NCBI GenBank assembly: GCA_019310525.1
Contig: JAFDEE010000010.1
Coordinates: forward strand, 1 to 64,000
Direction: 5' to 3'
Length of the DNA stretch: 64,000 nucleotides
Origin: Deltaproteobacteria bacterium
GTDB lineage: Bacteria; Desulfobacterota; DSM-4660; Desulfatiglandales; HGW-15
Shown here: positions 36,272-43,326 of the stretch, piece after piece
How positions within the stretch are numbered: the first letter of the stretch is position 1
Layout of the letters: the number at the start of each line of letters is the position of its first letter
Notes under the pieces: model-generated
What the model was told of the DNA's origin: nothing
Databases searched by the model: none
Seen by the model: the letters and a program-made list of their open reading frames with translations, nothing else
Translations under genes and position numbers: made by a program

Positions 36272-36487
36272 ATGCCGATTTTTGAATTCAAATGTAATAA
36301 TTGTGGTAAAGTTTTTGAAGAACTGGTCATCAGCTCCAAGAAAGATGAGGTGGGAATCTGTCCGAAATGCGGCAGTCAGGATACCAGCCGCCTCCTTTCC
36401 TCTTTTTCCAGCTCCGTGCAGGGATCGGGAGGAGGTCTGGGGGTGTTATCATCGTCCTGTTCATCTTCATCCGGAGGATTTTCCTGA
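36272..36487 (+). CDS. FmdB-family zinc ribbon protein with Ser/Gly tail
   Basis: A 71-residue protein beginning MPIFEFKCNNCGKVFEEL. CNNC at residues 8-11 and CPKC near 31-34 make one zinc ribbon. The tail is rich in Ser and Gly with one Cys (SSSCSSSSGGFS), which is usual for the family. The function is unknown. It is followed after 115 bp by the putative selenoprotein gene on the same strand, so the two may be expressed together. Confidence 0.85.
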   Translation: MPIFEFKCNNCGKVFEELVISSKKDEVGICPKCGSQDTSRLLSSFSSSVQGSGGGLGVLSSSCSSSSGGFS

Positions 36488-36602
36488 GCATGATGATCCC
36501 ATGCAGCCGTGTGCTGCACAACACACTCGGTGAGCCTTTCGTACTTTGAAGAGGGGATCCGCCGAATAATCACCTGAGATGGAAAGGAAAGGCTACAATC
36601 CC

Positions 36603-36794
36603 ATGGGTATTTTATGGTTTTTATTGATCATCGTGGCTTGGGTCGTGCTTCAGGCTTATGTGTTGCCCAAATTCGGGATCCCCACCTGAATGAGCCAAAG
36701 TTGCCAGGTTGGCGATTTATCCAGTAAGCAAGAAACGCCGGAAAAAGGGGGCTTTGTTGAAGAGATTCAAGTCCCGGACGAAACCAAGGACTAG
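36603..36794 (+). CDS. Putative 63-aa membrane selenoprotein (in-frame TGA as Sec)
   Basis: The frame starts at ATG 36603 (AAAGG ten bases upstream; an alternative ATG lies at 36579). Residues 1-21 form one hydrophobic helix, then LPKFGIPT, then TGA at 36687-36689, then an in-frame continuation of 34 codons starting MSQSCQVGDLSS and ending at TAG 36792. Read as selenocysteine, the product has Sec29 and Cys34, a possible redox pair just after the membrane helix. A hairpin begins ten bases after the TGA: stem 36699-36705 with 36711-36717, loop AGGUU. The loop starts 17 bases past the TGA, close to the E. coli fdhF element (loop AGGUCU, one base further). If the TGA were a normal stop, the gene would encode only a 28-residue helix. 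Confidence 0.68.
36699..36717 (+). promoter_or_regulatory. Bacterial SECIS-like hairpin
   Basis: AGUUGCC at 36699-36705 pairs with GGCGAUU at 36711-36717 (seven pairs, two of them G-U), closing the loop AGGUU at 36706-36710. Sixteen nucleotides separate the UGA from the loop, within the range accepted for bacterial SECIS elements, and one of the first two loop bases is G. An alternative outer stem pairs UGAAU with AUUUA and GCCAA with UUGGC. Confidence 0.62.
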
Positions 36795-41387: not shown

Positions 41388-41648
<261 letters not shown>

Positions 41649-41675: not shown

Positions 41676-42647
41676 TTAGATCATCACGATGAGTAACAAT
41701 GCAACGATGAGAGAATAAATACCGGTGGACTCGGCAACGGCCATACCCACCAACATGGTTCTACTCAGCACACCCGTCAGAGGGGGATTTCTGGCGATCC
41801 ACTTGACCGCCAGGGAAGCGGTGATTCCCTCACCGATACCCGGACCAATGCCTCCAAAACCCATGCAGACACCGGCACCGAGTAAGGCCATGGAACTCGT
41901 CAGTGAATGGTTTTCCTTGAAACCGTAAAACAAAAGCATAAGGCTGATGAGAAATCCGTAAATAGCAGTCGATTGTGCGACCCCGAGCCCTACGAGCATG
42001 GTCCGGTTTGTAGCGGAGATCGTCTCATGATTGCGGGCAACCCCGCGAACTGCCTCCATAGCGGTGATACCGTTTCCGATTCCGGGACCTATGGCAGAGA
42101 GCCCGGTCGATAGTCCCGCCCCAAACACAGCGGCCCACCCTGGATAAAGAGGAATGGAACTCAAATCGAGGAACAGCAGTAAAAAAGCGATCACCATTCC
42201 GAAAATAGCGGGCGTCTGGCAGACGGCCGAACCGACGAGCATGGTAGTAAGAATCTTGTTGCTGCTGGCGGGCTGGCGCACGATCCCGAAACATGCGGTT
42301 CCCGCTGGCAGGCCGGCTCCTACTCCGGATCCGATGGCCGACAATCCCATAGCCAAACCGGCACCGATGGACGCCCATGCGACCAGCATATTCGTTGAAC
42401 CGGGTTTCATGAAAAGCAGAAGGATGGATACCACAAGGGCGAATATGGCCGCGGACTCTGCAATGGCCTGTCCAACGAGCATGTTTTTAATGACGTCACC
42501 CGACTTTTCGGGCCGAAAGGAGAGCGCTTCGTTGGCCTTTCCCGCCGCATAACCTTCGCCAAGGGCCGCCCCTATGGCCCCGAATCCTATGGCCAATCCT
42601 GCTCCAAGGTAAAGAGATGCCCGTATGTATGTAATCGATTCCAGCAT
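41676..42647 (-). CDS. Fused four-hairpin c-type subunit (c4 proteolipid)
   Basis: Start placed at ATG 42647, five bases past the atpB stop, giving 323 residues; an 11-codon extension to 42680 overlaps atpB. Positions here count from 42680. Four tandem c-like hairpins repeat every 80-81 residues. The helix-1 position is E42, A122, N203, E284 and the helix-2 position is E75, Q155, Q236, E317. The MLVG motif before each helix-2 site is kept in all four. So hairpins 1 and 4 keep both carboxylates and 2 and 3 have lost both. Linkers between hairpins are short and partly polar. It would enter the rotor ring with the 82-residue c subunit. Known fused c subunits are mostly V/A-type or two-hairpin. 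Confidence 0.9.
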   Translation of the reverse strand: MLESITYIRASLYLGAGLAIGFGAIGAALGEGYAAGKANEALSFRPEKSGDVIKNMLVGQAIAESAAIFALVVSILLLFMKPGSTNMLVAWASIGAGLAMGLSAIGSGVGAGLPAGTACFGIVRQPASSNKILTTMLVGSAVCQTPAIFGMVIAFLLLFLDLSSIPLYPGWAAVFGAGLSTGLSAIGPGIGNGITAMEAVRGVARNHETISATNRTMLVGLGVAQSTAIYGFLISLMLLFYGFKENHSLTSSMALLGAGVCMGFGGIGPGIGEGITASLAVKWIARNPPLTGVLSRTMLVGMAVAESTGIYSLIVALLLIVMI

Positions 42648-42651
42648 TTGC

Positions 42652-43326
42652 CTACTTGACCTGTAGTGATATGTAAACAAGGGTTAGCATGGTGAACACA
42701 AAGGCCTGAATACTGCCGACAAAAAGACCGAAAAATAAAACGAGAACCGGTGGGAGTACCAACTGGTATACCAGGCTGGAGACCACCAGAATAATAATCG
42801 ATCCGCCCATGATGTTTCCATAAAGACGGAAAGATATGGAAACCACCTTCGCGAGTTCGCCTATCACGTTCAAAGGGGCCATGAAGAATATGGGTTGAAA
42901 ATACTCCTTGGAATACTCCTTGAATCCCTTGACCTTGATGCCTGAGTAATGGGCGATAAAGAATCCGAGTATCCCCAGCCCCAGCGGTGTATTGAGGTCC
43001 TTGGTGGGTTCGCTCAATTTAGGGATGATTCCCAGCCAATTGCAGAGCAGGAGGAACATGAAAAGAGTGCAGATCATCGGGAAAAATTTCTTGGCCAGCT
43101 TTTCCCCAAGCGCGTCCTTTGACAAGTCATAAAATGCGTTGATAAGCATTTCAGCAACGACCTGGAAAGGATTGGGAAGAAAATCCGCCTTTCTTGCGGC
43201 AAGGAAACCGAAAAGGATCAAAGCACCCATCACGATCCAGGTCATGATGATGGTTTGGATATTGAAGACCAGATTCAGTCCGAATAACTTGTAGGCGAGT
43301 TGTGGGAGGTGAGTTATTTCGTCCAT
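42652..43326 (-). CDS. atpB: F0 ATP synthase subunit a
   Basis: A 224-residue membrane protein with about five or six helices. The essential Arg is in VVSISFRLYGNIMGG near residue 169, and CNWLGIIPKL near 95 is the usual conserved segment. The last helix contains GSIQAFVFTMLTLVYIS. It forms the ion half-channels against the c ring. It precedes the fused c gene by four bases and follows the AtpI-like gene by 11 bp. The length is slightly short but normal for this group. Confidence 0.93.
   Translation of the reverse strand: MDEITHLPQLAYKLFGLNLVFNIQTIIMTWIVMGALILFGFLAARKADFLPNPFQVVAEMLINAFYDLSKDALGEKLAKKFFPMICTLFMFLLLCNWLGIIPKLSEPTKDLNTPLGLGILGFFIAHYSGIKVKGFKEYSKEYFQPIFFMAPLNVIGELAKVVSISFRLYGNIMGGSIIILVVSSLVYQLVLPPVLVLFFGLFVGSIQAFVFTMLTLVYISLQVK

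Follow-up and report, generated by a model that had tools for sequence, protein, structure and literature searches.

Several described selenoproteins resemble the gene that we report here. Those of the E. coli fdhF/fdnG type carry an in-frame UGA that is read with SelB and a bacterial SECIS (bSECIS) hairpin, with an early G and a GU in the loop, and our locus has the same elements. In eukaryotes, SELENOK and SELENOS are small single-pass membrane selenoproteins with selenocysteine (Sec) on the cytosolic side; the likeness to our family lies in being small, single-pass and having a cytosolic Sec, architecture alone being compared. TsoB (NF045694), which is like a rhodanese/DsbD fusion, is a membrane thiol-redox selenoprotein, and in this it resembles what we propose below. 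The small redox selenoproteins with UxxC or CxxU motifs (thioredoxin, glutaredoxin, SelW-like proteins and the CC/Se motif; PMC13188914) have Sec near a Cys and share a redox neighbourhood with our family.

We analysed a stretch of 64,000 nucleotides from a Deltaproteobacteria bacterium (contig JAFDEE010000010.1), referred to as the window, which contains a short gene for a predicted membrane selenoprotein (Table 1). An earlier note on this DNA had described a frame of 28 codons, a TGA, 34 codons and a TAG, and its coordinates are exact: frame translation gives 28 codons from the ATG at 36603, the TGA at 36687-36689, 34 further codons and the TAG at 36792-36794. The predicted product of 36603-36794 (+) is MGILWFLLIIVAWVVLQAYVLPKFGIPT-U29-MSQSC34...TKD-stop. 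Under the standard code the frame ends at the UGA, after 28 codons, and gene finders cut the membrane protein off at this "stop". Hydropathy of the helix rises to 2.58 over 19 residues. AlphaFold, run with three sequences, places a helix at residues 2-23 and gives the tail low confidence, so the catalytic geometry is not visible in the model. Across the family, the mean charge is -0.28 at the N-terminus and +2.4 on the C side. Because of this bias (a slightly negative N-terminus and a positive C side), the positive-inside rule leads us to expect an N-out/C-in topology, with Sec29 and Cys34 predicted to lie at the cytoplasmic face just past the helix. A promoter and terminator scan gave nothing above shuffles, and an Rfam scan around the gene gave only a sub-threshold match to a cobalamin riboswitch, which we put down to chance.

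Table 1. Coordinates in the window of the selenoprotein gene, its parts and its upstream neighbour.
Feature	Position	Strand	Basis
FmdB-family zinc-ribbon gene, directly upstream	36272..36487	+	TIGR02605 1.2e-15, PF09723 6e-16
Shine-Dalgarno-like GGAAAGGAAAGG, 10 nt before ATG	36581..36592	+	read from sequence
Predicted single-pass membrane selenoprotein gene, 63 residues including Sec29, stop TAG	36603..36794	+	translation and homologues
Transmembrane helix, residues 2-23; conserved W13, L16, Q17	36606..36671	+	hydropathy, AlphaFold, conservation
UGA codon, predicted Sec29	36687..36689	+	TGA in all 134 distinct genes and in divergent members read later
Bacterial SECIS-type hairpin, loop AGGUU 16 nt after UGA	36698..36718	+	covariation, published bSECIS model
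Cys34 codon TGC, predicted partner of Sec29 (U-x4-C)	36702..36704	+	Cys at matching place in most of 134 proteins

We searched for homologues in six-frame translations of genomes with stops read through, and counted matches across the phylum at E <= 0.01. Homologues are present in 13 of the 17 genomes of the source family, in 50/85 of the source class and, by E-value, in 167 of the 395 phylum genomes sampled; on reading, two of these hits (G087 and G156) proved spurious, leaving about 165 (~42%). A near-identity pattern scan of genome contigs retrieved two relatives, from a Syntrophales MAG (L029) and a "Deltaproteobacteria" MAG (L030), and tblastn against 72,556 plasmids gave no match. The TGA is in frame in all matches listed from the 395 phylum genomes. 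For comparison we extracted 134 distinct genes, of which 123 have a Shine-Dalgarno-like motif at their start, against 32 in shifted controls; 94 diverse members were used for conservation and profile scans. The family consensus, M-helix-W-xx-L-[QN]-xx-[IV]-[LF]-P-[KR]-x-G-[IV]-x-[TS]-U-x4-C, runs into a charged tail. In the 94 diverse members there is no variation at P22, G25 and the Sec column, and almost none at W13, L21, T28 and C34. The Sec29-x4-Cys34 pair that the note had placed right after the helix is kept as U-x4-C in 118/134 proteins, and a further 10/134 have U-x5-C. Cys34 is not strictly required, as two members (L171 and L151) keep the UGA and have no Cys after it. Two loci from one genus (L193 and L196) have a second in-frame UGA; each UGA has its own hairpin, and the Cys stands at x4 after the second UGA (PTUDGP[ST]C), a tandem double-Sec version of the protein.

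A check of the source genome (G000, completeness 96.8%) for selA, selB, selC and selD, which the note had called for, found all four. The tRNA-Sec gene selC scores 73.2 bits and is also called as tRNA-SeC by ARAGORN, selB scores 386 bits and selA 620 bits. The selD gene (L032, G000:C6:427-1350) itself has an in-frame TGA, like known Sec-SelD. Across the sampled phylum, selA is present in 359/395 genomes, and in 160 of the 167 carriers of the selenoprotein family. The remaining seven carriers all match selB, six above the cut-off and one in fragments.

The hairpin after the UGA is as the note had described it, with an AGGUU loop 16 nt past the TGA. Its stem (AGUUGCC/GGCGAUU, 36699-36705 with 36711-36717) starts with base 10 past the TGA, encloses the loop at 36706-36710 and can be extended by one A-U pair, 36698/36718. 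It satisfies the bSECIS model of a 4-16 bp stem, a 3-9 nt loop, a G at loop position 1-2 and a distance of 16-37 nt from the UGA (PMC13188914). Folded as a single sequence, the hairpin is within chance (z -0.25). We left folding energy out as proof because the minimum free energy fold of a longer stretch prefers a different pairing. Comparison of 35 members from the class is more informative. Positions +13..+18 pair with +24..+29 in nearly all of them; the pair +17/+25 is C-G in 24, U-A in 11 and broken in none, and +14/+28 and +13/+29 likewise vary on both sides. In this alignment 86% of the stem cells are paired, as opposed to 78% in column shuffles (0/2000 reach 86%) and <=52% when the register is slid. 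In other clades of the phylum a hairpin with a GGA loop closed at +25 is common, the closing pair being +18 or +25 by clade, so that the register of the element shifts between clades while the Cys remains at x4. A minority of divergent members have only poor hairpins. Support beyond chance for a decoded UGA is comparative: the invariant UGA, the frame open in 134/134 genes and the covarying stem.

Two readings of the UGA compete with its decoding as selenocysteine. In one, the gene would end there, giving a 28-residue membrane peptide, and the hairpin would be something else; the standard code does stop at this codon, and the folding energy of the hairpin is by itself not significant. The frame after the TGA, however, stays open for 13 codons or more in every one of the 134 distinct genes, whereas the other two frames reach 12 codons in 62 and 72 of the 134 and shuffles do so in 54%. 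UAA or UAG never replaces the UGA in these genes. Their true stops are mixed (TAA 55, TGA 42, TAG 37), and the all-TGA site is therefore not due to a stop preference. Substitutions after the UGA between close pairs number 37/32/59 by codon position, a third-position excess, and the x4-Cys stays in place though the hairpin moves its register. With the near-complete co-occurrence of the family and the Sec machinery, these observations make a terminating UGA very improbable. The other reading, that the UGA is decoded as another amino acid (e.g. Trp) through a changed code or a suppressor, is compatible in principle with an open frame across the stop. It is the more improbable of the two, given that neither TGG nor another sense codon was seen at the site, that 42 of these genes use TGA as their stop, and that a SECIS hairpin and a tRNA-Sec are present. 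From these sequence comparisons, we consider it almost certain that the UGA at 36687 encodes selenocysteine. The selenoprotein reading of the earlier note is supported by the machinery, the invariant UGA and the conserved downstream codons; no homologue ends at the UGA, and conservation past it is greatest at the x4-Cys.

Cys-containing homologues are the usual support for a selenoprotein and not a definition of one. Among all homologues inspected in the 395 phylum genomes, we found no Cys-for-Sec form, nor any sense codon at the Sec site. We searched 80 non-carriers again with a wider profile, 29 of them without selA, and found no form of the gene. The same profile did match in 21 carriers with weak or multiple hits, two of them spurious (G087 and G156). 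Four genomes whose hits had no stop reported within them (G351, G399, G290 and G086) were considered as possible sources of Cys forms and rejected; the local match had stopped short of the site, and each has a UGA there. That these 80 non-carriers, including those lacking selA, have no form of the gene speaks for gene loss over conversion to Cys. Within the phylum, lineages losing Sec seem to lose the gene and not to swap in Cys. We lean, by a little over even chances, towards a Sec-obligate family, in which the chemistry would be impossible with Cys and the gene would be lost instead of converted. The family also offers a natural test case for where Sec cannot be replaced.

Some genes close to the selenoprotein gene recur across families, though only a minority of loci have them; most copies are isolated or have clade-specific neighbours. 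Within <=500 nt, FmdB genes are on the same strand in 13/13 loci beyond the window (on either side), ArsR/SmtB genes in 6/7 and thioredoxin genes in 6/6, compared with 0.8, 0.35 and 0.38 expected under uniform placement, ratios that are overstated since related loci are not independent. The fullest order is that of L122 (ArsR - Sec protein - small Cys-rich ORF - FmdB - thioredoxin - CcdA), with pieces of this cassette matched in L123 and L124; domain scans covered the ArsR, FmdB and thioredoxin of L123 and the CcdA of L122. A locus from another family (L159) has Sec protein - FmdB - thioredoxin. Thioredoxin is directly upstream of the selenoprotein gene in L109, L129 and L132, and it is preceded by a TlpA-like redoxin in L158 and by a C_GCAxxG_C_C protein in L112. 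L109 also has genes for an ArsP-type permease and for an ArsF-type protein nearby. We set aside opposite-strand CcdA and TlpA-like genes in L119, L135, L138 and L152 as possible clade synteny, together with gltX and other one-clade or opposite-strand neighbours.

Some further features of these regions were recorded. The small Cys-rich ORF is unannotated, encodes ~74-90 aa (HCHKFDRWLDVE..CxRPEDYCxFREkCGI) and lies between the selenoprotein and FmdB genes at L122:5133-5354 and L123:5089-5361; a similar sequence follows the thioredoxin at L159:3534-3749. In L093, L101 and L120, a gene like those for ECF-type sigma factors shares about 35-44 nt with the 3' end of the selenoprotein gene. Elsewhere in the window, the ATP synthase region on the (-) strand encodes a 334-aa protein of about four tandem c-subunit hairpins (41676-42680) beside a normal-sized c subunit of 82 aa (41388-41636), a pair that recurs in four further loci of the set compared for gene neighbours.

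The gene neighbours lend support to the thiol-redox role that the note had suggested. Because of these recurrent redox neighbours, we propose that the protein works at the inner membrane in a selenol-thiol relay linked to thioredoxin. SelB and tRNA-Sec would decode the UGA at 36687 as selenocysteine with the help of the hairpin that follows after 16 nt, giving a protein of 63 residues in the inner membrane with a single N-out/C-in helix and the Sec29-x4-Cys34 pair at the cytoplasmic face. Sec29 would supply the selenol that attacks in this membrane-anchored relay and would reduce a membrane-proximal substrate, e.g. a disulfide of CcdA or of another membrane protein; peroxide, or oxidised sulfur or metalloid species, are alternative substrates. 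Sec29 would then form a selenenylsulfide with Cys34, and cytoplasmic thioredoxin would reset it. The FmdB zinc-ribbon and ArsR/SmtB proteins may be recurrent partners or regulators. We infer this relay, with Sec29 as the attacking selenol, to be the most likely mechanism, at about even odds. Taken as a whole, a membrane selenoprotein whose UGA is decoded via the hairpin and which takes part in a thioredoxin-linked relay is probably the best explanation of the locus.

The protein could instead be a membrane binder or chaperone of metals or metalloids, in which the Sec/Cys pair captures a soft metal for an efflux or resistance system. The ArsR/SmtB-type regulators that adjoin the gene in several families would suit this role, as would the ArsP-type and ArsF-type neighbours of L109 and the zinc ribbon of FmdB. 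The thioredoxin, CcdA and TlpA-like neighbours suit redox better, however, and no further ligand is conserved besides the Sec/Cys pair. The family is also found in about 42% of sampled phylum genomes, whereas metal-resistance genes were recognised near very few copies, and we regard metal binding as unlikely, with perhaps one chance in four. Slightly less likely still is a role in a larger membrane complex, which the protein would serve as a small accessory subunit or as a regulator, Sec being a redox switch. Microprotein subunits are typically of this size and have a single helix, and the conserved W13, L16, Q/N17, P22, K/R23 and G25 suggest a packing interface, but no one complex is constant among the neighbours. 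The thioredoxin-linked relay remains our preferred reading.

The family has very probably not been described before. A Pfam-A and NCBIfam 20.0 scan of the 94 diverse members gave no family match and only sporadic weak hits of single members, and a PDB profile search gave nothing meaningful (best E 0.8). Table 1 of PMC13188914, which covers 119 prokaryotic selenoprotein families (2026), has no such architecture or U-x4-C motif, and the new families of deep-Sep have no match to ours. Literature searches found no description of it, most subscription papers being outside the reach of those searches. Our conclusion is that these single-pass membrane selenoproteins form a new family, one that is apparently Sec-obligate. 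Discovery mainly follows strategies that pair a UGA with Cys in homologues, and the authors of deep-Sep note that their method may miss families without Cys homologues, yet believe that none remain (PMC12013277). Occurrence of the family in about 42% of phylum genomes and its absence from the 2026 inventory suggest that short-gene selenoproteomes are undercounted.

Each of the systems that we began with differs from this family. Compared with selenoproteins of the fdhF/fdnG type, its members are far smaller, with one membrane helix and no cofactor domain, and their hairpin register varies within the family. Small UxxC/CxxU selenoproteins differ from it in that it has U-x4-C after a single helix and no match to a thioredoxin-like model. 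In L122, the best NCBIfam match of the neighbouring CcdA is to the DsbD part of TsoB; TsoB itself is a large multi-domain fusion with a profile of 572 positions and no similarity to the selenoprotein family. SELENOK and SELENOS are ER proteins whose tail is longer and has Sec close to its C-terminal end, unlike the bacterial family, which offers a minimal membrane selenoprotein for biochemistry.
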